Counted from the stretch's first letter, positions 7,047 to 28,747 are shown. The stretch: 32,008 nt of DNA from Bdellovibrionales bacterium (GCA_023301025.1 JALZUR010000049.1:1-32008); one strand, 5' to 3'. The notes: a model not told the origin generated them from the sequence alone. Translations and numbers: made by a program.

Positions 7047-7122
7047 TGGATGGGGTAGCAGGACTCGAACCTGCGAATGACGGGATCAAAACCCGTTGCC
7101 TTACCAACTTGGCTATACCCCA
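7047..7122 (-). tRNA. tRNA-Gln, anticodon UUG, CCA encoded
   Basis: The minus strand folds into a 76-base cloverleaf. The acceptor stem is TGGGGTA (7122-7116) with TACCCCA. The anticodon stem ACGGG/CCCGT carries the loop TTTTGAT, giving anticodon TTG for Gln (CAA codons). The T arm is GCAGG-TTCGAGT-CCTGC. The discriminator base is U and the CCA end is encoded (7049-7047), followed immediately by eight T residues on the minus strand. It lies 57 bases downstream of spoVG on the same strand and no convincing promoter is seen between them, so it may be processed from a shared transcript. Confidence 0.96.
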
Positions 7123-16872: not shown

Positions 16873-18730
16873 CTTTTTTAGTAAAACACCAAAGATTTTA
16901 TACTTTGTATTAAGCATTCTATGTCTTTTTAATTTTAGTCAGGCTTTTGCTGAAGTTAAGGTCAAGGCTAGGCTTATTACACCTAATGTAAGTATTGGTG
17001 AACAGGTTAGAATACAAGTTGAGCTTAGTTCAACCGAAAATAATGACTTTGGTGGAGACGTCAGCCCAGTTGAAATTATTGGGGATGGGGCTTTAGAGTT
17101 TTTAGGGATCAATCAAAGTTCTTCTTCAAGCTATAGCATCGTTAATGGTAAAACAAAAAGCTCATTCACTAAAACACTCACTCTAAATTATGCTGCTTTT
17201 AAAGAGGGTGTATGGACAGTGCCTAAAATTAACCTAGGTTCTAGTGGTGAAAAAACTGTTGGTCCTTTTCAAGTTAGAGTTTTTAAAGTGCTTCCTGATA
17301 AGTACAAAAAAAACAGAGTGCAAACGCAAAAGCCAAAACAGTATGGGGGCCTTTTAGATAAAATTTTCGGAGGCGGTCAGGGCAGTGCATATAACAACTC
17401 CCCAAATAGAAAAATTGAGTTTTTTGCCGAAGCTGAAGTGGATAAAACAAAAGTGTATGCAGGGGAGCAGATTTATGTCTCTTTTAATATATACACTACA
17501 GGTTCTATCACTCAGTTTGACACATTAAAATTTCCGACCTTTAAAGGTTTTTGGAAAGAAGATGTTAACTTTGCAGGGCGATTTATGTGGGAGCCTGTTA
17601 TAAGAAATGGCAAACGTATGCAAAAAGCAGAACTAAGCTCTTACATTTTGATTCCATATAAAGCTGGGAACTTAGAAGTTGATAGCTTTAAGCTAAGAGC
17701 GGGAGTTTCTCAAAGAAGTTTTGGTTTTGGGCGTGAGAGTAAGTTGATTAAGTTTGATACAAAATCAATTCCCATTGAAGTGCTTCCTTTTACTGAACCA
17801 GAGCCTGAATCTTTTAAGGGGGGTGTTGGACGCTTTGCTGCTGGAGTCGTTGGCGGTCTTAATAGACGGCAAATCAATGCAGGAGAGGTCTATGAACTAA
17901 GATTAAAAGTTGTTGGTGATCAATCAAGTGTTAAATTTGTTGAAGCCCCGTCTCTAGATTTAGGTGATGACTTTAAACTTTTATCTCAAACAGAAGACTA
18001 TAGATTTTTTAAAAGAAACTTAAGTTCTATGAAGATTTTTAAGTACAATATAATTCCTAAAAAAGAGGGCATCTTTAAAATACCCGATGCTGTCCTTAAT
18101 TTTCATGAAGCCTACGGTGAAAAAGGTGGACCTGATTCTTTTTATCAACTTGTTCAAGAGCTACCAACTTTAAAGGTTATTAAAGGCAAGGGCAAACTTA
18201 AGGCAAAAGATGAGCTTTTTACCTCTGAAGATAAGACAACAAAGTGGATGTCTTTTAAGGAACAGAGATTTTTAGAATTTATAAGCTCTAAGATCTCTTG
18301 GTGGGTGTATTTAATTTTAACTTTAGCCCTTTTTATTTTGTCCTATTTTATCTTTAAAAGTGAGATTAAAGTTGGTGAGTTTGATGATCAATTAAAAGAC
18401 AAATTAGAAAATTACACACGAAAGGCTAATCAGTCTTTTAAAGACAGGAAATTTAAAGACTCTGCAACAGAGCTTATCAATTACTACTATCTAATTGTTG
18501 GAGCTTTGATTGGAAAACGTTTATCAACAGAAGAAGAATTTATGGTTTCAATTGAATCTATACCAGCAGGTTTGAAAAAACATAAAGAGTCAATCAAAGA
18601 GCAAATGAATGAGCTCCAAGAACTTAGGTTTGGTTCTGATTTGTCCATTAAGAAGAATCAGGATAGGTTAGATGAATGTATTCAAAAACAAGAAAAAGAT
18701 TTAAAACTTTTAGAATCCTACATTTCTTAA
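16856..18730 (+). CDS. batD: BatD-like membrane protein
   Basis: A 624-residue protein matching BatD in layout. A signal peptide (ending FNFSQAFA) is followed by EVKVKARLITPNVSIGEQVR, the typical BatD opening; then several beta-sandwich segments (PVEIIGDGALEFLG; AEVDKTKVYAGEQIYVSFNI; KAGNLEVDSFKLRAG), one membrane segment (about 481-500, WWVYLILTLALFILSYFIF) and a cytoplasmic helical tail (about 505-624). The start is a GTG at 16856 preceded by GAGGG, inside the end of batC. BatD is thought to work in the periplasm with BatA/B; its exact role is unknown. Its last 55 bases also encode the signal peptide of the next gene. Confidence 0.9.
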   Translation: MARLGNFFSKTPKILYFVLSILCLFNFSQAFAEVKVKARLITPNVSIGEQVRIQVELSSTENNDFGGDVSPVEIIGDGALEFLGINQSSSSSYSIVNGKTKSSFTKTLTLNYAAFKEGVWTVPKINLGSSGEKTVGPFQVRVFKVLPDKYKKNRVQTQKPKQYGGLLDKIFGGGQGSAYNNSPNRKIEFFAEAEVDKTKVYAGEQIYVSFNIYTTGSITQFDTLKFPTFKGFWKEDVNFAGRFMWEPVIRNGKRMQKAELSSYILIPYKAGNLEVDSFKLRAGVSQRSFGFGRESKLIKFDTKSIPIEVLPFTEPEPESFKGGVGRFAAGVVGGLNRRQINAGEVYELRLKVVGDQSSVKFVEAPSLDLGDDFKLLSQTEDYRFFKRNLSSMKIFKYNIIPKKEGIFKIPDAVLNFHEAYGEKGGPDSFYQLVQELPTLKVIKGKGKLKAKDELFTSEDKTTKWMSFKEQRFLEFISSKISWWVYLILTLALFILSYFIFKSEIKVGEFDDQLKDKLENYTRKANQSFKDRKFKDSATELINYYYLIVGALIGKRLSTEEEFMVSIESIPAGLKKHKESIKEQMNELQELRFGSDLSIKKNQDRLDECIQKQEKDLKLLESYIS

Positions 18731-20757
18731 CTTTACTCTTTTATGCACAGAGCGCATTTTCATATGCCTTATCTAGCGATGAGGTGTTAAAAAGAACTGA
18801 TTTTATTACTAAGTATAAGCCATCTTCAAATGATATCGTTATGCAGAGTTTTATTAAAGAGTGTTTTTATGACAGTAAAATTGACTGTATAAAAAGACTT
18901 TTAGCTCTAACTAAGAAAGATGAATACAGTGAATTTCTAGATTTATTTAAGGCCACTTTTTTTAAACGTTTTTCCGGACAAGAAGAAGGTCTTCTTTTTT
19001 TAGATGAAATTAAAGATAAGTTAAATCAAGAGGATTTAAATGACTTTATTTCTAAAACAAATATCAAAAGAGATTCAAAAGACTGGTATGTAAACAATTT
19101 TAACTCTCTTAAAAAATCTTTATCTTCTTTGGTTCAAGAAAAGCCTAATACTCTATGTTCTCTTCATAGACTTTCTGTAATAGATCAAGCTGAAAAAAAA
19201 CATGATACGAATCAGGTTGAATTTATCAAAGATCAGCTTTTGATGCTTTCTAAACGCAGTGATAGGTTTGAACTTAATTTTTCAAGACACCCTTGTGGTG
19301 TTGATACTTTTGAGTATTTGAGTGATCTTAAAAAAGATAAAGAAAGCTTTGATAAAGGCCTTTATTCTTTTGATTATAAATACAGTTTTTATCAAAAAAA
19401 AGCCTCTCTTAAAATTTATAAAACTATCAAACGAAAAAAAGACGTAGATTTTTGGAATCAGCTTGTAAAAGAAAATAAAAGTGTACAAGATTTAATTGTT
19501 AAAAATACGTTTTTTAAGAAAAAATTTTCAAGAGTCAGAGCTGTCTCTGAAACTCAAATTTTAAAATTACGCCCACAAGCTTTGATGTACGTTGCAAAAG
19601 CATTTTTGTATGGTGATGAGCATGATAGGCTTGAGTCATTGTCTAAAAAATTAAACTTTGAGAAAGCTGTTTGGGCTGAAGAGATACTTTTAACACTTTC
19701 AATTTCTAGAATTAGACAAAAAAAATTGGTAGAAGCTAAAAAATCTTTAGAAAAACTTTTAAAGTATCATGTCGATTTAAGACTTTCAGGGCTTTATTGG
19801 CTTTGGGTGATTAACAATAAGATTGATTTAAAAGCTGAAAATAAGAAGATTATTGAACTAGTAGAAAAACAATATGCTTTTACTTACTATGGTTTAAGAA
19901 TTTTGATCAAAGAAAAAGGATCTAAGTATCTTAAAAACTTTGTAAAACCTAAAAATTTAAAAGTTAAGAAATTTAAACTTTCAAAAAAGAAAATCAAAAA
20001 GTTTTTGATTTATTATTCTGGTGGCTTTGATGATCTTTATACAAAATATTTAGAAAAAACCAAAAAAAATATTGATGTAAGAGAGCTTGCACTTTTTACG
20101 ATGATTTTGGAGCGTTTTGGTAAGCGCTTAGAAGCTATTAAGCTTTTGAAGTTTGTTTGGGAGCAGGATTCAAAATTAAGGATTAGACCTCTGTTTCAGG
20201 TCTCTTATCCATTTTTATATGAACCACTTGTAGATAGTGCGGTAAAAAGATTAAAGTATGTCACTAAGCCTTTAGTCTGGTCTATATCTAGGCAAGAGAG
20301 TGCTTTTAATCCAAGAGCACAAAGTGCTTCTGGTGCAAAAGGTTTAATGCAAGTTATCGGCTCCACCGGGCGTGAAGTTTCAAGACAAATGCGTTTAAAA
20401 ACTTATAAGGGTTCAAGGTCTTTGTTTAAGCCAGAGATAAATCTTCAAATAGGATCAAAATACTTAGATCGTTTGATTGTTTCTAGTAAAGGCTATGTGC
20501 CTTATGCTTTGGCTAGTTACAACGCAGGCCCTGGTAATCTTTTTAGGTGGTCAAAACTTAGGCCAGGAGTTCAGGACCTTCGTAAAGGCTTTGATGTTAA
20601 TAGTTATGAGGCCTTTGATGAGATTTGGGTTGAAGAGCTTCCGTGGTCAGAAACTAGATTTTATGTAAAGGCTGTTTTAAGAAATTTTGGACTCTACAGA
20701 CTTCTGTCAGACCAGTCAGGTGGCTTTAGTTGTGACTTTTATTGGATTTGCACTTAA
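18676..20757 (+). CDS. slt: Slt70-like soluble lytic transglycosylase
   Basis: A periplasmic murein lytic transglycosylase, 693 residues. The N terminus has a basic region (MYSKTRKRFKTFR) and a hydrophobic core ending AQSAFS, a good signal peptide. A long helical, Lys-rich superhelix region follows, as in Slt70. The C-terminal SLT domain holds SISRQESAFNPRAQSASG with the catalytic Glu541, then AKGLMQVIGSTG and YALASYNAGPGNLFRW. It cleaves the MurNAc-GlcNAc bond to give 1,6-anhydro ends. The only ATG that keeps the signal peptide lies 55 bases inside batD, so the genes overlap heavily and are probably coupled. The Lys content of the helical region is unusually high. No obvious terminator follows the gene. 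Confidence 0.92.
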   Translation: MYSKTRKRFKTFRILHFLTLLFYAQSAFSYALSSDEVLKRTDFITKYKPSSNDIVMQSFIKECFYDSKIDCIKRLLALTKKDEYSEFLDLFKATFFKRFSGQEEGLLFLDEIKDKLNQEDLNDFISKTNIKRDSKDWYVNNFNSLKKSLSSLVQEKPNTLCSLHRLSVIDQAEKKHDTNQVEFIKDQLLMLSKRSDRFELNFSRHPCGVDTFEYLSDLKKDKESFDKGLYSFDYKYSFYQKKASLKIYKTIKRKKDVDFWNQLVKENKSVQDLIVKNTFFKKKFSRVRAVSETQILKLRPQALMYVAKAFLYGDEHDRLESLSKKLNFEKAVWAEEILLTLSISRIRQKKLVEAKKSLEKLLKYHVDLRLSGLYWLWVINNKIDLKAENKKIIELVEKQYAFTYYGLRILIKEKGSKYLKNFVKPKNLKVKKFKLSKKKIKKFLIYYSGGFDDLYTKYLEKTKKNIDVRELALFTMILERFGKRLEAIKLLKFVWEQDSKLRIRPLFQVSYPFLYEPLVDSAVKRLKYVTKPLVWSISRQESAFNPRAQSASGAKGLMQVIGSTGREVSRQMRLKTYKGSRSLFKPEINLQIGSKYLDRLIVSSKGYVPYALASYNAGPGNLFRWSKLRPGVQDLRKGFDVNSYEAFDEIWVEELPWSETRFYVKAVLRNFGLYRLLSDQSGGFSCDFYWICT

Positions 20758-20799
20758 AATAAATAATAGTTGTAATTACTATACACAAAAGAGGCTCAA

Positions 20800-20827
20800 T
20801 TGTGTCTCAATAGAATTTTGATATCCT
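20800..20827 (+). promoter_or_regulatory. candidate extended -10 promoter of the MltD-like gene
   Basis: TATCCT (20822-20827) is preceded by TG at 20819-20820, an extended -10 element, and by TTGTGT (20800-20805) with a 16-base spacer. The coding start with AGAGG at 20834-20838 follows at 20846. The -35 match is weak (three of six). Confidence 0.35.
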
Positions 20828-20845
20828 AGGGGTAGAGGTGTTTTT

Positions 20846-22438
20846 ATGAAGTTTAGAGTGTCACATAAATCTAATTTAGAGTTTTCTTTTAATACAAAGA
20901 AGCTTTTAATTGGTGCAAATTTACTTTTTGTTCTTACAGCTTGTATGCACAAAAACCCTCATAGCCCTGTTGATGTTCCTTATGGAAGTCCTGTTTCGGC
21001 TACTCAAGTTCCAGGCCATGGACAGGTAGACTACGTTGCTCCTGCTGTGACGTCCAGAGAAGAGATTAAGGTTACAAATTCTGTTGAGCTTAATAAACAT
21101 CAAAGAAACGATATTTTTTACGTAAACGACTATGGTGCTCCTTTTGTTAAAAAGTGGGAGGATTACTTTACTGGTCGTGGCCGTAGACATATGGACACTT
21201 ACTTAAATCGTCTTCCTCGTTACGAAGCTATGATGAAACAGATTTTAAAAAGTGAAGGGGTTCCAGAAGAACTTATCTATATAGCATTAATTGAATCAGG
21301 ATTTAATTCTAAAGCGTACAGCCGTGCAAGTGCAGTTGGGTATTGGCAGTTTATTAGAGGAACAGGTAAGCACTATGGTTTAAAGCAAAATTGGTTGGTG
21401 GATGAAAGAAGAGATCCGATTCATTCAACTCGTGCCGCTGCACAATACTTTAAAGCTCTTTATCATGCTTTTGGCTCTTGGCACTTGGCTATGAGTTCTT
21501 ACAATGCTGGAGAGCATAGAGTTTTACGAGCTATTATGGGCAATGTGACTCGTGAATTTTGGAGTCTTCATGAAAAGAAACAACTCCCAAGAGAAACAAG
21601 AGATTATGTTCCTAAGTTTATTGCTGCAGCAAAAATTGCTTCAAATCCAAAAAAATATGGTTTTACTCACACTGTAAGTAATGACCGTTTTAACTTTGAT
21701 ACCGTTAGAATGAATAAAGGTGTTAGTCTTTCCGCTTTTGCTAAAAATTTAGGTGTTAGTGTTTCTGAAGTAAAAAGACTCAATCCCACATTTAAAACTG
21801 ATCTTGCTCCGGTTTACAGAGGAAAATTTGTAGACTTAAGAGTTCCTGTTGGAATGGGTGGCGATAAAGGACTTCTCGCAGCTCAGAAAAGTATCTCTAC
21901 TAAAAAATATTATGCAGCTTCAGGCGGCTATCATAAAGTAAGACGAGGTGATAATTTATCAGTTATTGCAAAACGTCATCGTACTTCAGTTAGAAAACTT
22001 AAGAGATTAAATGGGTTAACGAGCCGTTCTGTTCTTTATCCTGGTATGAGAATCAAACTTCCGGGTGCAAAGGGTTCAGTGGCTAAAGCCTCTAATACAA
22101 CGCCTGTAAAAGCTTACACGGGAAGTGCTGCAAGCTATAAAGTAAGAAGTGGTGACAATCTTTGGACCATTGCTAAAAAGTTTGGAATGTCTGTTGGCTC
22201 TTTAAAGAAAATAAATAATCTTTACTCTTCTAAATTAAAGATAGGTCAGATTCTACTTTTAAAGACTCCAGGAAGTACAAATATCTCAAAGACTAAAACA
22301 CATTATGTGAGAAGCGGAGAAAACCTTACACGTATTGCTAGAAAGTACAGTGTAAGTCTCAATTCTTTACTTAAACAAAACAACATGAGCTCACGCTCAG
22401 TTTTAAAAGTTGGAACTCGTCTTAGAATTCCAAATTAA
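20846..22438 (+). CDS. mltD: MltD-like membrane-bound lytic transglycosylase with LysM repeats
   Basis: A 530-residue murein transglycosylase. The N terminus has a lipoprotein signal (LLIGANLLFVLTAC, lipobox LTAC). The SLT domain (about 135-260) has GVPEELIYIALIESGFNSKA with catalytic Glu150, ASAVGYWQFIRGTG and MSSYNAGEHRV. After a degenerate LysM-like segment (about 285-330) come three clear LysM domains that bind peptidoglycan: about 362-405 (KVRRGDNLSVIAKRH), 430-473 (KVRSGDNLWTIAKKFG) and 485-528 (YVRSGENLTRIARKYS). AGAGG lies 7 bases before the ATG. It has its own promoter-like sequence and an 88-base gap from slt, so two different transglycosylase types lie side by side. In a predatory or cell-wall-remodelling bacterium this fits growth or prey-wall processing, but that is inference. 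Confidence 0.94.
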   Translation: MKFRVSHKSNLEFSFNTKKLLIGANLLFVLTACMHKNPHSPVDVPYGSPVSATQVPGHGQVDYVAPAVTSREEIKVTNSVELNKHQRNDIFYVNDYGAPFVKKWEDYFTGRGRRHMDTYLNRLPRYEAMMKQILKSEGVPEELIYIALIESGFNSKAYSRASAVGYWQFIRGTGKHYGLKQNWLVDERRDPIHSTRAAAQYFKALYHAFGSWHLAMSSYNAGEHRVLRAIMGNVTREFWSLHEKKQLPRETRDYVPKFIAAAKIASNPKKYGFTHTVSNDRFNFDTVRMNKGVSLSAFAKNLGVSVSEVKRLNPTFKTDLAPVYRGKFVDLRVPVGMGGDKGLLAAQKSISTKKYYAASGGYHKVRRGDNLSVIAKRHRTSVRKLKRLNGLTSRSVLYPGMRIKLPGAKGSVAKASNTTPVKAYTGSAASYKVRSGDNLWTIAKKFGMSVGSLKKINNLYSSKLKIGQILLLKTPGSTNISKTKTHYVRSGENLTRIARKYSVSLNSLLKQNNMSSRSVLKVGTRLRIPN

Positions 22439-23294: not shown

Positions 23295-23705
23295 TTGCCT
23301 TACATGCTTAAAGTAGGTTTTTATTTAAGCCTCATCTTGGTTGTGGTCTTGTTGTGGAAAAAGAAAAAGTCTAAGCCTACATCATTAAAGCTTAAAGCTT
23401 ATAAAGAGCATAAAACAGGTCTTCCCGGCTTAAGAAAAGTCTCTGCTGAAGTTGTAGAACCTGGATATGAGGATCAAGAAGGTGAGGTCGCGTTTTCAGA
23501 TCGAAGCGATAAAGACAATCCAGGCGGTCTATTTATTTTTAGGGGAGATAGGTATTTGGCTTATGATCTTTTACAAGTGCCACGTGGTGCCGAAGAGAAA
23601 GAATTAAAAAAGGCCTTTTCAAAAAAAGTACAAAGTGAGCCAGGTAAAAAAGCGCTGTATTTTAAAGCCTATGAAACTCTTATAAAAGAGTTAGCAAAGG
23701 ACTAG
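23295..23705 (+). CDS. membrane-anchored J-domain-like protein without HPD
   Basis: A 136-residue protein. A membrane segment (VGFYLSLILVVVLLW, about 7-21) is followed by KKKKSK, so the rest should be cytoplasmic. The C-terminal 45 residues (about 89-135) resemble a DnaJ J-domain: AYDLLQVPRGAEEKELKKAF like helices I-II, and LYFKAYETLIKELAKD like helix III. The HPD tripeptide that stimulates DnaK is absent; the stretch there reads SKKVQSEPGKKA. The start is a TTG at 23295, chosen because GGGGG lies 8 bases upstream; an ATG at 23304 is 17 bases from it. The stop overlaps the fur-family stop tail to tail. The J-like call is moderate; a DnaK-stimulating role is unlikely. Confidence 0.6.
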   Translation: MPYMLKVGFYLSLILVVVLLWKKKKSKPTSLKLKAYKEHKTGLPGLRKVSAEVVEPGYEDQEGEVAFSDRSDKDNPGGLFIFRGDRYLAYDLLQVPRGAEEKELKKAFSKKVQSEPGKKALYFKAYETLIKELAKD

Positions 23706-24124
23706 CTGCACTTGGAACATTGACCTTGAAGTACAATGGCTGAGACTTTTGATAAAATCTTTGAGAGCTTTTTAATTTCATTAGAAGCTTTGCAGATCAT
23801 TTGGTTGTGCTCTTTTATCTCTTCAGTTCTACTGCACTTAGTGCAGCTTACAATAATATGAATATGAGAGTGTGACTCTGACTCTGAATGTTGATGATGG
23901 CATATGGAGTATGTGCCTTCACTTAAAGAATGCACAATACCAAGCTCTTTAAAAAGTAAGATGTTTCTGTAGATTGATGCTAAATCTGTTTTTTCTTTTA
24001 AAGACTTATATAAATCCTTTGGAGATAATGATTTTTTTGAACTGTGTAAAGCTTTAAACAAAAGTTTTCTAGATTCTGTAAGTCTTAGATTTTTTTCTTT
24101 TAATTTGGTTTCAAGTTGCATCAT
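23702..24124 (-). CDS. Fur/Zur-family metal-responsive repressor
   Basis: A 140-residue Fur-superfamily DNA-binding protein. The N-terminal winged helix includes LRLTESRKLLFKALHSSKK and a recognition helix DLASIYRNILLFKELGIV. The dimer domain has His-rich metal ligands (ICHHQHSESESHSHIHIIVS) and two structural-zinc pairs, Cys94/Cys97 (CTKC) and Cys136/Cys139 (CSKC). The family senses iron (Fur), zinc (Zur), manganese or peroxide; the His-rich loop and the neighbours (TonB receptor, MerC-like protein, His-rich secreted protein) make Zur the best guess. No Shine-Dalgarno precedes the ATG. It is last in a tonB-redoxin-fur series on the minus strand, so the palindrome in front of tonB may autoregulate it. 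Confidence 0.88.
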   Translation of the reverse strand: MMQLETKLKEKNLRLTESRKLLFKALHSSKKSLSPKDLYKSLKEKTDLASIYRNILLFKELGIVHSLSEGTYSICHHQHSESESHSHIHIIVSCTKCSRTEEIKEHNQMICKASNEIKKLSKILSKVSAIVLQGQCSKCS

Positions 24125-24171
24125 TGTTTAAATTTTGTTTGTACTTAAGGCTTTACTTAGTTGATTAAAAG

Positions 24172-24645
24172 TTATGATTCAGAAGGGGTTGAAGTGTTCT
24201 TAAGAATTTCACTTTTAATATCCTTACAGGCTTTATATCCAATAATATGCGTTTCATTTTTAGGGTTAAAAAAGATACTTTGAGGTGTGATGCCTTCTTC
24301 AAAGCCTAAGCTTTCGTAGTTGTCTTTTGAGATGTAGTAACCTTTAAAGTTTGTTTTCTTTTTTAAGTATGAGCGTAAAACCTTACGATCATGTTTAAAA
24401 CTGCCAATAAGCACTATTTTATCAACAGTTTCTTTTAAGCACTCAAGTCGTTTGATTTGTTTTTTGCAAGCACCGCAGTTGGGTTGAAAAAGAACAGCAA
24501 GAGTGCCTTTAGTTAAGATCTCATCAACAGAAAAACTTTTAGATGAGTTAAGATCTTTTAGAACTTTAAGCTCATCTTTTGCGAAAAGATTTTGCGAGCA
24601 AAGAGTAAAAACAAATAGAGTTGAGATAAAAAATTTAGAGTTCAT
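24172..24645 (-). CDS. periplasmic thioredoxin-like protein with CGAC active site
   Basis: A secreted thioredoxin-fold protein of the TlpA/redoxin type, about 157 residues. A signal peptide (MNSKFFISTLFVFTLCSQ, cleavage after LFA) is followed by LAVLFQPNCGACKKQIKRLE, with the redox pair Cys57/Cys60. The segment TPQSIFFNPKNE is where thioredoxins have the cis-Pro loop (GITPQ). A TTG at 24651 is also possible: GAGG is 6 bases from it but 12 from the ATG at 24645. The gene overlaps the end of tonB by 11 bases (17 with TTG), so it is co-translated with it. A dedicated thiol oxidoreductase here may keep the Cys residues of the receptor or metal proteins in the right state; that is inference. Confidence 0.85.
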   Translation of the reverse strand: MNSKFFISTLFVFTLCSQNLFAKDELKVLKDLNSSKSFSVDEILTKGTLAVLFQPNCGACKKQIKRLECLKETVDKIVLIGSFKHDRKVLRSYLKKKTNFKGYYISKDNYESLGFEEGITPQSIFFNPKNETHIIGYKACKDIKSEILKNTSTPSES

Positions 24646-25207
24646 AGACAATTGGTACCTCGAAAGTTTGCGATTTAAGTAGTTTTGGTAAAGGTTTAAA
24701 GTAGGCTATTTTCTTTAAAAAAGATAGAGTGCCTTGGTTTAAGGTTTTATGGTTTGAAGGTGAGATTAAATCAACATCGATAAACTTACCGTCTTTGTTG
24801 ATTTTGATTCGCACCTGAACACTCCCACTGTGTTTTAGCTTCGCAGCAATGGGTGGGTAGTGATCTTTGTTTTTTAAAAACTGATAGAGTTCTTCTTTAT
24901 AGCTAAGTTTTTCAGGTGATTCAGGCGGAGCACTTGCATTTGCAAGTTTTGAATTTTTATTAGGAAGATGAGTGTTGTTTTTAAGTGTAGCGTTGGGTTT
25001 TAACTTTGAGATAAATTTTTGAGTTTTAACTAGGTTTTTGCTGCTTTTTAGTTTTTTACTAGGACTTAAATCAGATGTTTTAATATCTATTGAAACATAA
25101 TAATTATGAGTATTTTCTTTATCTTTGTGAGGTAGGTGAAAATGACTGAAGACTAAGACCAATAGACTCAGGTGTAGAATGACACTCATTGAAAAAAATC
25201 TTCTCAT
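24635..25207 (-). CDS. tonB: TonB-family energy transducer
   Basis: A 190-residue protein. The N-terminal membrane anchor (FSMSVILHLSLLVLVFSH) has the TonB-type S-x-x-x-H pattern (Ser-Val-Ile-Leu-His), which in TonB contacts ExbB/ExbD. A basic, Ser/Asn/Lys-rich periplasmic spacer follows, then the TonB C-terminal domain: KDHYPPIAAKLKHSGSVQVR, IKINKDGKFIDVDLISPSNH, and a final TFEVPIVYEL. It passes proton-motive energy to outer-membrane receptors, most likely the receptor encoded divergently at 26132. The ATG at 25207 is preferred; the TTG at 25243 would add twelve residues before the anchor and overlap the promoter. No exbB or exbD gene is in the window. It is the first gene of the tonB-redoxin-fur group. 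Confidence 0.88.
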   Translation of the reverse strand: MRRFFSMSVILHLSLLVLVFSHFHLPHKDKENTHNYYVSIDIKTSDLSPSKKLKSSKNLVKTQKFISKLKPNATLKNNTHLPNKNSKLANASAPPESPEKLSYKEELYQFLKNKDHYPPIAAKLKHSGSVQVRIKINKDGKFIDVDLISPSNHKTLNQGTLSFLKKIAYFKPLPKLLKSQTFEVPIVYEL

Positions 25208-25228
25208 ATCTATTGTTTTTGCAAAAAA

Positions 25229-25258
25229 ATTGTAATAAAACAAGCTTTATTATTGCAA
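25229..25258 (-). promoter_or_regulatory. candidate tonB promoter
   Basis: On the minus strand TTGCAA (25258-25253) and TACAAT (25234-25229) stand 18 bases apart; TACAAT matches the -10 consensus at five of six positions. The -10 ends 21 bases before the tonB ATG at 25207. Its -35 lies inside the left arm of the 9-5-9 inverted repeat. Confidence 0.5.
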
Positions 25259-25272
25259 ATTAATTGCAATAA
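25250..25272. promoter_or_regulatory. 9-5-9 inverted repeat, candidate Fur/Zur-family operator
   Basis: TTATTGCAA (25250-25258) and its perfect reverse complement TTGCAATAA (25264-25272) are separated by five bases (ATTAA). The repeat lies between the divergent tonB and His-rich protein genes and covers the -35 of the predicted tonB promoter. A third related half-site, TTGTAATAAAACAAG (25230-25244), is a near-direct repeat of TTGCAATAAAACTAG (25264-25278), with 13 of 15 bases equal. Binding by the Fur/Zur-like protein encoded at 23702 is inferred from position and symmetry. Confidence 0.6.
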
Positions 25273-25383
25273 AACTAGTTTAGTGGTTATTTTGATCTAA
25301 ACCAGCTTATTTGTGCTTATTTCCTCTATTTTTTAAATTTAGGCAGTGATTCATAAATTTAAGTGCTAACAAGGGAGACTTTC

Positions 25384-26106
25384 TTGAAGAGCTTTTTAAT
25401 TTTTATGTTTATTTGTTCTGTAGCTTGTGCTGAAACTCCAGATTTTGTTTTAGAACAAGCGTCTGATTCACACTCTGGTCACGATCATGGTGATGGTGGT
25501 TCTAATGTGGATAACGGTGGCCTGTCAGGAGAACTTAGTGGTTCGAATGTAGTTTCAACTCAAGCCTATGAATTTTCTGGTTTATGTGGTGAAGGTTTTG
25601 TAACTAGTTCTTTTAAAGAAACTAAGATTTATATCGGTAAAAAGTCTTCAGATGATCTAGCTTTAAATGAGCAAGAGTTTTTGATTAGAGTTGTGTACTC
25701 TGCACCTGATGGAGACGCTCTAAATGATGGACGTTTAAAGTTTTATTATGAAAATGGCACTGATCTTACTCCAGTAGCATCTCCTTTTAAGAAAACTTCT
25801 AATACTAAGATTGTACTTACGGGCCTAGTTATTGAAGGCGAAGATGATTTGATAGACCAATCACTTTTAACTGATATTTTAAATGCAGCAGATGAAAATC
25901 TAACCAATAGCTACAAAAGCTATTATAAAGTTTATTTAAATAATGATTTTGACTTTTCTATGAAGGGTACAGATCTGAATATTAAAGATCTTCTTGTTGG
26001 ATCTTTAGAAAGTATAATTGTTGCAGGTGTTGGGCATTATCATTTTCCAAAATGTGTTGATGTTACTTTTAAAGATATTGTTGAGGACTTTGATTTTAAA
26101 TTGTGA
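25384..26106 (+). CDS. secreted His-rich protein of the metal-uptake locus
   Basis: A protein of about 240 residues, not recognised as a family. The TTG at 25384 is preferred over the GTG at 25363 because AGGGAG lies 6 bases before it and a signal peptide (KSFLIFMFICSVAC) then begins at once. The Cys in SVACAE could be a lipoprotein Cys, though the lipobox is imperfect, or the site could be a signal peptidase I cut (ACA). The mature start has a metal-binding His cluster (DSHSGHDHGDGG), the middle is beta-rich (EFLIRVVYSAPDGD), and the end contains another group, GVGHYHFPKC. It is the first gene of the rightward set with the TonB-dependent receptor, 25 bases upstream of it. Inferred role: periplasmic or surface binding of zinc or a similar metal. 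Confidence 0.7.
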   Translation: MKSFLIFMFICSVACAETPDFVLEQASDSHSGHDHGDGGSNVDNGGLSGELSGSNVVSTQAYEFSGLCGEGFVTSSFKETKIYIGKKSSDDLALNEQEFLIRVVYSAPDGDALNDGRLKFYYENGTDLTPVASPFKKTSNTKIVLTGLVIEGEDDLIDQSLLTDILNAADENLTNSYKSYYKVYLNNDFDFSMKGTDLNIKDLLVGSLESIIVAGVGHYHFPKCVDVTFKDIVEDFDFKL

Positions 26107-26131
26107 TTTTTTTAGATCATATCTTGTTTTT

Positions 26132-28270
26132 ATGAATTTAGCATTTCGTTTTCTAATCCTATTTGTTGTACAACTTGTTATTCATTTTAGTGTGAGTGTT
26201 AAGTCATATGGAGCTGAAGTCTTAAACCCTATTGTGGTTCAAAAAAAAGACCGCACTCGTCTTGATCCTCATGCAACTTTTAAATCAGAAAGAGTTTCTG
26301 AAAAAAGTCTTAAAAGTCCTTCTAGACAAAATTTAACTCAGGTATTGAAAGATCAAGTTGGTGTTGATGCCCAAGTCTACTGCTCTAATTGTGGCGCTAA
26401 AAGGCTTACCATCAATGGCTTAAGAGCAGAAAACACCTCTTTACTCATTGATGGCCTACCACTTCACTCTTCAGTTTCAGGTTTTTATGGGGTTGATAGT
26501 GTTGGTCCTAATGGAATTTATGAAATTGAAGTTATGAGAGGAACAGGAGCTTCGCTTACAAATCCTGAAGCTATAGGTGGGACGATAAATATAATCACAC
26601 TTGATCCTTTAGAAAGCCCATTATCTTCGCTATCCACGTCTTTTAGCTCAAATGATCAAGCTGAAGTTAGTGCTCAGAATCAACAGGCTCTTTTTTCTTA
26701 TGCAAACCAAGACAAAACCTTTGGGGTTTTATTTGGGGCTCAGTACACTGAGCAAAAACCTTGGGATGAAAATAAAAATGGGATAGCTGAGTCTCCTATG
26801 AGAGACTCTTTAAATGTTTTTACAAAAATTAAATTTATGGCAGGCAAAAAAAATGAGTTTTTTTTAAGAACCTCTATAAATGAATTAAAGATTTTAGGTG
26901 GTCCTTCTAAAAATGCAAAAAAGCCTGAAACAATTTCTGATGAAGAGGTTCTACCTAGTGATTTTGAAATTTTGGGTGATGTTGAATCAAAATATGTTGG
27001 AGATAATAGAGAAATTACAGATTGGATAAATTTAAAAAGGTATGAAGGGCAATTTAAATGGATGCATCATTTTGCCGATGATTTTAAAATAGATTTAAAT
27101 TTAGGAGTTGCAAGGCAAGAGCAACGATCTTTATACCAGCATGGTTTTGATTACGCCAACAATGATATTTTGTGGGTTGGAGATTTAAAAGTTGAAAAAC
27201 TCTGGAACGAGCATATTTTCAATGCAGGTCTTTTTTTTAAGGATCAGAGGCTTAGATCGACTTCTGAGATTTTATTTGAAGACAGAGGTTTAAGAAAAGA
27301 CAGTTTTAATCACAAATCATTAGCTTTTTATCTTAGAGATACTTACGTAATGTCTGAAAAGTTTGAAATGGATTTGGCTTTAAGGTTTGATCAAGTGAAT
27401 ATGACTTGGATTGATCTTGAAAATGAGATTTCAAATTTAGTTATTGCCCCTAGGGTTCAACTTAAAAATAGTATTACCGATCACCTTACGCAAAGACTTT
27501 CTTATGGTTTGGGCTACAGAACTCCACTCACGTACTTTGAGTCACAGCACACAAACAGTGAGGTGGGTTATGAGGTCGATATCTCAAAAATTGAGAGTGC
27601 AGACTCTTTAGTGTATACATTAAGTTATAACACCCCCAAACACTACTCAACTTTTGGTAGCCACTACACACATTTAAAGAACATGTCTTTTGCTGATGAG
27701 CCTAATGATCTTACACAACCTGTTTTTTTTAGAAATGCGAATGAAGCTTATGACATTTGGGCTTTTGATATTTTAGTAGGTTATAAGCTTAACCCCTCGT
27801 TGATGCTTGAGCTAAGTTATGAGCATTTTTTATTTGAAGATGGCTATACAAAAAAGCTTCCGACAGCATCAATAGAGCAAAGGCTTCAGTTTAAAAGCTC
27901 TTATGAAAAGGGAAGATGGTCGGCTTTTATGAATTTAAGTTTTGTTCCCTCTAGAGATCTTGGTAGGTATGGAGATTACATAAATCACTATAGAGTTTAT
28001 AGATTGTCTTCGACTGCTGAATTTATTGATCCTAAGAATTTAAAAGCAGATAGTTTTTTTACTCTAGATGCTGAAGGACAGTATAAAGTAAATAAATATT
28101 TTAGTTTAAGCTTTGGTGTTAAAAACTTACTGGATCAGACTCAAGTCAGCTCGAAAGATAGCCCTTCAATGTGGCACAACCACTTAGGACATGCTCATTA
28201 TGATGGACTTCACACTTGGGGACCTAATAGGGGGCGTGAGTGGTATTTACAGTTGTCAGCAAACTTTTAG
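26132..28270 (+). CDS. TonB-dependent outer-membrane receptor, probably for a metal
   Basis: A 712-residue gated beta-barrel transporter from ATG 26132. This start gives a signal peptide (MNLAFRFLILFVVQLVIHFS, cleavage near SYGA); the frame is open to 26018 but that would overlap the preceding gene. A TonB-box-like NPIVVQKKD opens the mature protein. The plug domain (about 65-170) contains LTQVLKDQVGVDAQVYCSNC with Cys84/Cys87, INGLRAENTSLLIDGLPLHS and GGTINIITLD. The barrel follows, ending in the aromatic C-terminal strand WYLQLSANF. Close to the end a His cluster (MWHNHLGHAHYDGLHTW) is placed in the last loop. Known zinc receptors (ZnuD type) have His-rich loops; with the Zur-like repressor and MerC-like neighbour this suggests zinc, but cobalamin, copper or a chelate are not excluded. 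Confidence 0.9.
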   Translation: MNLAFRFLILFVVQLVIHFSVSVKSYGAEVLNPIVVQKKDRTRLDPHATFKSERVSEKSLKSPSRQNLTQVLKDQVGVDAQVYCSNCGAKRLTINGLRAENTSLLIDGLPLHSSVSGFYGVDSVGPNGIYEIEVMRGTGASLTNPEAIGGTINIITLDPLESPLSSLSTSFSSNDQAEVSAQNQQALFSYANQDKTFGVLFGAQYTEQKPWDENKNGIAESPMRDSLNVFTKIKFMAGKKNEFFLRTSINELKILGGPSKNAKKPETISDEEVLPSDFEILGDVESKYVGDNREITDWINLKRYEGQFKWMHHFADDFKIDLNLGVARQEQRSLYQHGFDYANNDILWVGDLKVEKLWNEHIFNAGLFFKDQRLRSTSEILFEDRGLRKDSFNHKSLAFYLRDTYVMSEKFEMDLALRFDQVNMTWIDLENEISNLVIAPRVQLKNSITDHLTQRLSYGLGYRTPLTYFESQHTNSEVGYEVDISKIESADSLVYTLSYNTPKHYSTFGSHYTHLKNMSFADEPNDLTQPVFFRNANEAYDIWAFDILVGYKLNPSLMLELSYEHFLFEDGYTKKLPTASIEQRLQFKSSYEKGRWSAFMNLSFVPSRDLGRYGDYINHYRVYRLSSTAEFIDPKNLKADSFFTLDAEGQYKVNKYFSLSFGVKNLLDQTQVSSKDSPSMWHNHLGHAHYDGLHTWGPNRGREWYLQLSANF

Positions 28271-28321
28271 AGAAGTAAGACGATTGTAAGATTAGTGTAC
28301 GTTAAAGGTGAATGAAAATAC

Positions 28322-28747
28322 ATGAGTTCAAAGAAAAACTTAAAACCTGATTTAAATTTTAATTTAAAATCTAAGAAAGATAAGATTGGTATTTTTCTAT
28401 CAATTCTTTGTGCTTTGCATTGCTTACTTTTACCAATACTTTTAGTGGCAACAAATTTAGGTAACACCTTTGGTGATTTACATACAAAGCATGAGTACAT
28501 TCATGTACTTTTCTTTATCTTGCTTTTTCCCTTGGCTGTAAATCTTTTGTTTACTTTTTTTAATGAAGGAAAGAAAAATCTTCTCATTGTTGTTTTTGTT
28601 GGAATTGTTTTTTTAACAGTTTCACTTTTAAACACTTACAGCCATTTCTTAGAGCATGACTCTTTATCAGAAATTTTACTCTCTATTAGTGGCAGTCTCT
28701 TATTAGCCTGGGCACATTTTAATAATTTACTTAAAATTAAAGAATAG
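28322..28747 (+). CDS. MerC-domain membrane protein
   Basis: A 141-residue integral-membrane protein with four predicted spans (about 22-44, 57-78, 86-106, 117-137). The first span carries the MerC hallmark CALHC (Cys30, His33, Cys34 in ILCALHCLLLPIL). The first loop has HTKHEYIH and the third loop has SHFLEHDS, further possible metal ligands. MerC was described as a mercury transporter, but chromosomal MerC-like proteins often sit with zinc-regulated receptors. Here it is the third gene of the rightward set, 51 bases after the receptor, and may carry the metal over the inner membrane. AAGGTG precedes the ATG by about 12 bases. Its end overlaps the coaE stop by 11 bases, tail to tail. Confidence 0.85.
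   Translation: MSSKKNLKPDLNFNLKSKKDKIGIFLSILCALHCLLLPILLVATNLGNTFGDLHTKHEYIHVLFFILLFPLAVNLLFTFFNEGKKNLLIVVFVGIVFLTVSLLNTYSHFLEHDSLSEILLSISGSLLLAWAHFNNLLKIKE

Follow-up and report, generated by a model that had tools for sequence, protein, structure and literature searches.

A stretch of 32,008 nucleotides from a Bdellovibrionales bacterium, related to predatory bacteria (GCA_023301025.1 JALZUR010000049.1:1-32008; here called the window) carries a divergent set of six genes, among them a Fur-family regulator, a TonB-dependent receptor and a MerC-like membrane protein. The arrangement poses a question: which metal does this locus handle, and do all six genes belong to one system? A prediction made earlier from the sequence had proposed a single self-regulated uptake system for zinc or a related metal. 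We conclude that, as judged from sequence, the locus very probably serves to acquire zinc under the control of a Zur-type regulator that it encodes itself; the synteny of five genes, the Zur-type ligands of the regulator, the Zur-box operator and the zinc-linked COG0523 neighbors found under that operator in relatives all favor the original prediction in this respect. Little is understood of the passage of zinc and other bare metal ions through the outer membrane and, as far as a limited literature search goes, zinc handling in Bdellovibrionota seems little studied.

The locus, its regulator and its operator

The window is contig 49 of a 2.03 Mb genome that is 97.5% complete. Genes were called as open reading frames (ORFs) and with Pfam and NCBIfam profiles; the genes, synteny, sensor ligands, operator, receptor clade residues and the operator shared by MerC genes were all computed directly. 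The six genes lie at the expected sites, with tonB, the redoxin and the regulator read leftward and the lipoprotein, receptor and MerC-like genes read rightward. Together with a perfect palindromic operator in the divergent intergenic region, the ORFs and profiles bear out the proposed six-gene divergent layout:

23702-24124, minus strand: Fur-family repressor, predicted to be of Zur type (PF01475, 49 bits; cut-off 23.1)
24172-24651, minus strand: secreted redoxin with a thioredoxin fold and a CGAC motif (weak match to Pfam at 19 bits; its relatives confirm the family)
24635-25207, minus strand: dedicated TonB with a C-terminal TonB_C domain (PF03544, 52 bits)
25219-25235, no strand: second, weaker operator, TTGCAAAAAAATTGTAA, with one mismatch, overlapping the predicted leftward -10 box
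25229-25258, minus strand: TTGCAA-18-TACAAT, a candidate promoter of sigma-70 type for the tonB-redoxin-zur operon (by consensus match only)
25253-25269, no strand: perfect operator, candidate Zur box, TTGCAAATTAATTGCAA (TTGCAA-N5-TTGCAA), from a pattern scan and the published Desulfovibrio box
25384-26106, plus strand: lipoprotein of a new family with the His/Cys motif GHYHFPKC (TTG start behind AAGGGAG)
26132-28270, plus strand: TonB-dependent receptor of a CxxC-plug family, zinc-type clade (PF07715 and PF00593, both over cut-off; ATG at 26132)
28322-28747, plus strand: MerC-family inner-membrane protein, CxxHC motif (LCALHC; PF03203, 61.5 bits; cut-off 27.6)

The profile matches uphold the earlier calls of a Fur/Zur-family repressor, TonB, a TonB-dependent receptor and a MerC-like protein, and relatives uphold that of a secreted CGAC thioredoxin-like protein. 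The tonB gene probably starts at the ATG at 25207, not at the listed TTG at 25243. The redoxin has a likely ATG start at 24645, and its gene overlaps the end of tonB.

The clustering of these genes is not due to chance. About 25 of the 243 related genomes, scattered patchily, contain clear orthologs of the receptor, and the regulator-redoxin-TonB group divergent from lipoprotein and receptor recurs nearly exactly at two other loci (L035 and L039); at a third (L051), the same arrangement is found without TonB. The expectation that all six genes would travel together was therefore borne out for five of them, as MerC stands beside the receptor in the window genome alone.

We next consider what the regulator might sense. 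In a profile of eight paralogs, its residues H65, C75, H87 and E102 align onto H77, C88, H96 and E111 of Escherichia coli Zur (4mtd). All four are invariant (8/8) and reproduce the N2OS zinc sensor site of that protein. The known major sites of Zur proteins are N2OS, and the C88S mutation of E. coli Zur abolishes the response to zinc (PMC6103462). The structural Cys4 site of Zur is likewise kept and invariant (C94, C97, C136 and C139). A second Fur-family protein of the window genome lacks the sensor cysteine. We found that the eight-paralog group scored about equally against Zur, PerR and Fur structures in a profile search, and that no Fur-family equivalog model of NCBIfam reached its own cut-off with the regulator. 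Our claim is therefore one of Zur-like function with Zur ligands, not of orthology to E. coli Zur; so worded, the prediction of a Zur-type zinc sensor is well supported by the sequence.

The perfect operator is the sole perfect copy in the window genome. It overlaps the -35 box, and the weaker copy the -10 box, of the one plausible leftward promoter. Its half-sites and spacing are practically those of the published Desulfovibrio Zur box, ATGCAACnnnGTTGCAT (PMC545781), which it nearly equals. In Desulfovibrio, znuABC-zur is preceded by a Zur box predicted by Rodionov et al., ATGCAACNNNGTTGCAT (PMC545781), and the operator of the window is this same element; there the box controls an ABC transporter, whereas the operator of the window would control the receptor, lipoprotein and MerC set. 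Within the window alone the pattern is not rare at two or fewer mismatches (6% of shuffles give two matches), and support for the operator comes instead from its conservation across relatives. With at most one mismatch, it is present upstream of 11 of 28 zinc-type operons (mean of 0.06 and maximum of 1 in shuffles), ahead of the same genes as in the window, and none of 28 gammaproteobacterial ones, although kinship among the loci inflates these counts and those for the Fur box given below. A palindromic Zur box is thus found at target promoters both in the window and in relatives. As to a wider regulon in the same genome, the 11 other one-mismatch matches were mostly intracoding, and none preceded an obvious metal gene, so they reveal no regulon beyond the locus there.

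The receptor family, its partners and its metal

A receptor-profile search over 84,980 species genomes, with patterns that took no account of the plug CxxC, yielded 80 loci, mostly from Bdellovibrionota, Gammaproteobacteria and Campylobacterota, with some from Elusimicrobia. They are mostly metagenome assemblies, some of them truncated. A partner was counted if it lay within 3.5 kb, and the lipoprotein-type motif was scored only directly upstream of the receptor.

Zinc-type loci (31): redoxin 23, lipoprotein motif 23, TonB 19, Fur family 10, COG0523 2
Other loci (49): redoxin 30, TonB 3, COG0523 2, lipoprotein motif 0, Fur family 0

From these counts, the redoxin is the core partner of the receptor, whereas TonB, the lipoprotein and the regulator mark one clade. 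Of 452 ORFs lying no more than 2 kb from the receptor, 53 were redoxins, vs. 2 of 540 at greater distance; the adjacent CXXC thioredoxin-fold partner (CGAC in the window) occurs at 53/80 loci, in several phyla. A search of the redoxin against plasmids gave no match. The original prediction had called both the redoxin and the dedicated TonB unusual additions. Neither description holds: the former is the most widely conserved partner of the family, and the latter is a usual component of zinc-clade loci (19/31 vs. 3/49).

Three features of the receptor proved informative:

26381-26392, plus strand: CSNC motif of the plug, with C86 and C89 (counting from the codon at 26126), from the receptor alignment
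27140-27142, plus strand: H339, from the clade comparison of aligned receptors
28181-28198, plus strand: C-terminal histidine cluster H686, H689 and H691, essentially confined to the zinc clade

Both plug cysteines are kept in all 77 aligned receptors, and the plug has the CxNC form of the CQNC-type receptors. Residue 339 is histidine in all 28 zinc-clade receptors and glutamate in the 49 others, a difference independent of how the groups were defined. The C-terminal histidines are nearly confined to the His-type group among the same 77 receptors, which is partly true by definition of that group. In a tree built by a quick method, the His-type group, including the window receptor, stands apart from the rest. 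The His label requires two changes on this tree, against 22.6 in shuffles, the second being a single long-branched row; the label was itself defined by the C-terminal histidines and then tested for clustering. The AlphaFold2 model of the receptor is good (pLDDT 89), and its fold is, in that model, that of an ordinary TonB-dependent receptor, with FepA, OprC, FecA, BtuB and others as the nearest solved folds (11-17% identity). Strand counting on the model would place the histidines of the zinc clade in extracellular loops.

Do the relatives outside this clade point to another metal? Of 28 gammaproteobacterial operons, 21 have a Fur box upstream when up to 4 of 18 mismatches are allowed (shuffle mean 0.20), and for this reason their receptors probably take up iron. 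The window locus might then be an iron-uptake locus whose receptor acts like these Fur-regulated relatives and whose Fur-family gene is an iron sensor. The receptor family and the redoxin are indeed common to both, and the scoring of the NCBIfam models described below leans the same way. However, the Fur box precedes only 1 of 28 zinc-type operons, which is not above shuffles; the operator is of the Zur-box type, the Zur sensor cysteine is present, and histidine replaces glutamate at 339 throughout the zinc clade. We consider an iron locus very unlikely. Scans before receptor operons outside the zinc clade for the standard gammaproteobacterial Zur box (TGTTATAnTATAACA) and for an MntR box gave nothing convincing.

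Copper acquisition is less likely still. On that account the plug cysteines and the redoxin would reduce and carry copper, and one of the nearest folds is that of the copper receptor OprC. However, OprC is near only in the way that TonB-dependent receptors generally resemble one another (about 13% identity, with FepA and BtuB equally near), the neighborhood has no cuproprotein-like gene, and both regulator and operator are Zur-type.

Several points do weigh against the zinc reading as a whole. A Fur-family gene lies within 3.5 kb of the receptor at just 10 of the 31 zinc-type loci, and about half of these loci have no recognizable operator in the scanned stretch. The NCBIfam Zur model gives the regulator 34.5 bits, far under its 167-bit equivalog cut-off (a naming threshold for close orthologs, not a functional feature), and the PerR and Fur models score it higher. 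The model of the lipoprotein is poor and of low confidence (mean pLDDT 60), and a fold search with it gave no structural match. Finally, among the loci compared, MerC adjoins no other such receptor.

The lipoprotein had been described as a His-rich secreted protein. Its lipobox, SVAC, identifies it as a secreted lipoprotein; its own histidine content is modest, and long His/Asp tails are found in its relatives. Neither it nor these relatives match a Pfam or NCBIfam family. Many of the long relatives bear such tails, and the long relatives retain a cysteine followed by the pattern H-x2-H-[YI]-x(4-5)-C; short lipoproteins at more distant loci keep a similar pattern. A profile alignment of long and short forms spans just the signal peptide and first cysteine, so that a common origin is at most suggested.

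Two further groups of receptors deserve mention. In Gammaproteobacteria (L138-L182), the CxxC-plug receptor adjoins the redoxin, often with overlap, and Fur boxes precede the pair, which is probably the form of the module that serves iron. In Sulfuricurvum and relatives (L132, L135, L144, L145, L147, L152, L157 and L158), CxxC-plug receptors occur without a redoxin; most are preceded by a protein of about 85-90 amino acids with a His stretch and a CxxC (HTHHKGEVCEVC in L152), and several are followed by a set of MCE/Mla-type ABC genes.

MerC and inner-membrane import

Does MerC belong to the system? The gene lies about 50 bases 3' of the receptor on the same strand of the window. Its family is present in 94 of 243 relatives. 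Outside the Bdellovibrio-type set, the operator stands just upstream of 7 of 21 MerC genes (shuffle mean 0.05); genomes with a receptor locus include two unlinked MerC genes with the operator, perfect in one (G038) and with one mismatch in the other (G033). Fur-family and COG0523 genes are often beside operator-bearing MerC genes, as in the COG0523-Fur family-MerC clusters at L089 and L215-L217. This shared operator places MerC in the same regulon, and we regard the MerC-like protein as a candidate zinc permease from its sequence context. The alternative is that the zinc system comprises the five conserved genes, with MerC downstream by chance and doing another job, e.g., efflux or heavy-metal binding. 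The lack of MerC beside other receptors and the absence of the operator ahead of MerC in the Bdellovibrio-type set (0/26) favor that account; the operator and neighbors of MerC in other relatives, and its close placement in the window, speak against it, and we judge it unlikely. The claim that MerC is a member of the system is thus sustained by the operator in other genomes and not by adjacency, which is unique to the window genome.

No mercury operon context (merA, merR or merP) was present among the window ORFs, and a literature search on MerC with Zur returned nothing useful. The window genome gave no match to ZnuA or ZIP and no clear COG0523; its two PF02492 matches, in ORFs of 1090 and 375 amino acids, are probably other GTPases. 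Elsewhere, at L222:844-2917, the operator heads a run of a NicO-family permease, MerC and a COG0523-like GTPase beside a Fur-family gene, which is another candidate zinc (or nickel/cobalt) set. In the Bdellovibrio-type loci L061-L084, MerC has an N-terminal CCxVDHxxH extension of metal-binding look and lies beside an unrelated conserved gene set.

A proposed mechanism and related systems

We infer the identity of the metal, the direction of transport, the order of transfer and the role of the cysteines as follows. When zinc is plentiful in the cytoplasm, the zinc-bound regulator would sit on the two operators over the divergent promoters and silence both tonB-redoxin-zur and lipoprotein-receptor-merC; zinc limitation would allow expression of both sides. 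An extracellular histidine site of the receptor would then capture Zn2+ in free or weakly bound form for import. The dedicated TonB would power passage through the plug together with ExbB/ExbD encoded at other sites of the genome; ExbB homologs are plentiful there, so the TonB can be energized. The lipoprotein may bind zinc entering via the receptor, and the MerC-like protein is the candidate carrier across the inner membrane, the order of transfer presumably running from receptor to lipoprotein to MerC. The redoxin, perhaps acting on the plug itself, may hold both cysteines of the plug in the reduced state, in which they could bind metal, hand it on or gate the plug.

The closest published system is the module of a CQNC-type TonB-dependent receptor and a periplasmic thioredoxin-fold protein (pTFP) of Stenotrophomonas maltophilia, controlled by MntR and published in 2026 (PMC13217887); its authors suggest that the redoxin reduces the plug motif (PMC13217887). 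The pairing of receptor and redoxin has so far been in print only for manganese. Both systems have a plug CxNC pair, a neighboring gene for a periplasmic thioredoxin-fold protein and regulation by metal starvation (predicted here). Could the window hold a manganese module of this kind? Its core parts do match (PMC13217887), but the S. maltophilia module is bicistronic and serves manganese/iron under MntR, whereas the window has a Zur-type regulator and operator from another family, a dedicated TonB, a His-rich lipoprotein, MerC and a divergent layout. Neither MntR nor MntH is encoded in the locus, and the receptor and lipoprotein offer histidine and cysteine, not the hard ligands usual for manganese. 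Like copper, manganese is highly improbable.

The zinc reading finds parallels elsewhere. As in Neisseria ZnuD (PMC2895646), a TonB-dependent zinc receptor would be under Zur control, a likeness drawn by inference and not by sequence comparison; unlike ZnuD-type receptors, that of the window belongs to a CxxC-plug clade that has its own redoxin and lipoprotein. COG0523-containing Zur regulons (PMC2770081) share the Fur-family regulator, COG0523 GTPases (here in relatives) and a common operator, but in the window MerC stands where an inner-membrane importer is expected. Cyanobacterial ZepA (PMC10957091) is likewise a Zur-linked exported protein, and its short motif, H-X2-9-H-F/Y-H, resembles the HYH stretch in look, with no homology claimed; it has a PEP-CTERM tail, whereas the window protein is a lipoprotein with an added conserved cysteine. 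NCBIfam also includes selenocysteine-containing receptor families, e.g., the FCYXU type (PMC13188914), which by family description, not aligned position, would fit a redox-active plug pair.

What is new here is the zinc type under the control of Zur, together with a TonB of its own, a family of lipoproteins, the exchange of a residue relative to the Fur-linked clade and the link to MerC. We tentatively propose, as a possibility, that CxxC-plug receptor and redoxin form a general redox-dependent module for outer-membrane metal import. Gammaproteobacteria would use it for iron, controlled by Fur, Stenotrophomonas for manganese, controlled by MntR, and Bdellovibrionota for zinc, controlled by Zur. 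The metal would be switched by a few ligand changes and a swap of regulator; the zinc form would have its own TonB and a His-rich lipoprotein, with MerC as inner-membrane zinc permease. The locus offers a receptor family whose metal appears to change via a Glu-to-His swap, a possible role for MerC-like proteins outside mercury resistance and an operator that predicts a Zur regulon across the phylum.

The remaining observations concern other genes. By eye, the locus flanks are unrelated to it: a Mrp-type ATPase, a weakly DnaJ-like ORF and a CoaE-like gene. At L058:7853-9950, the receptor gene is broken into two ORFs that overlap, owing to a frameshift or an error of assembly. The sole Rfam match in the window is a tRNA gene (7050-7122, minus strand). 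Between 11129 and 18730 lie consecutive genes for a MoxR ATPase, a DUF58-like protein, BatA/BatB-like von Willebrand proteins, a TPR protein and a BatD-like protein, a row that by eye resembles a Bat (aerotolerance) operon. At 18676-22438 is, by eye, a tandem pair of lytic transglycosylase-like genes, the second with LysM repeats.

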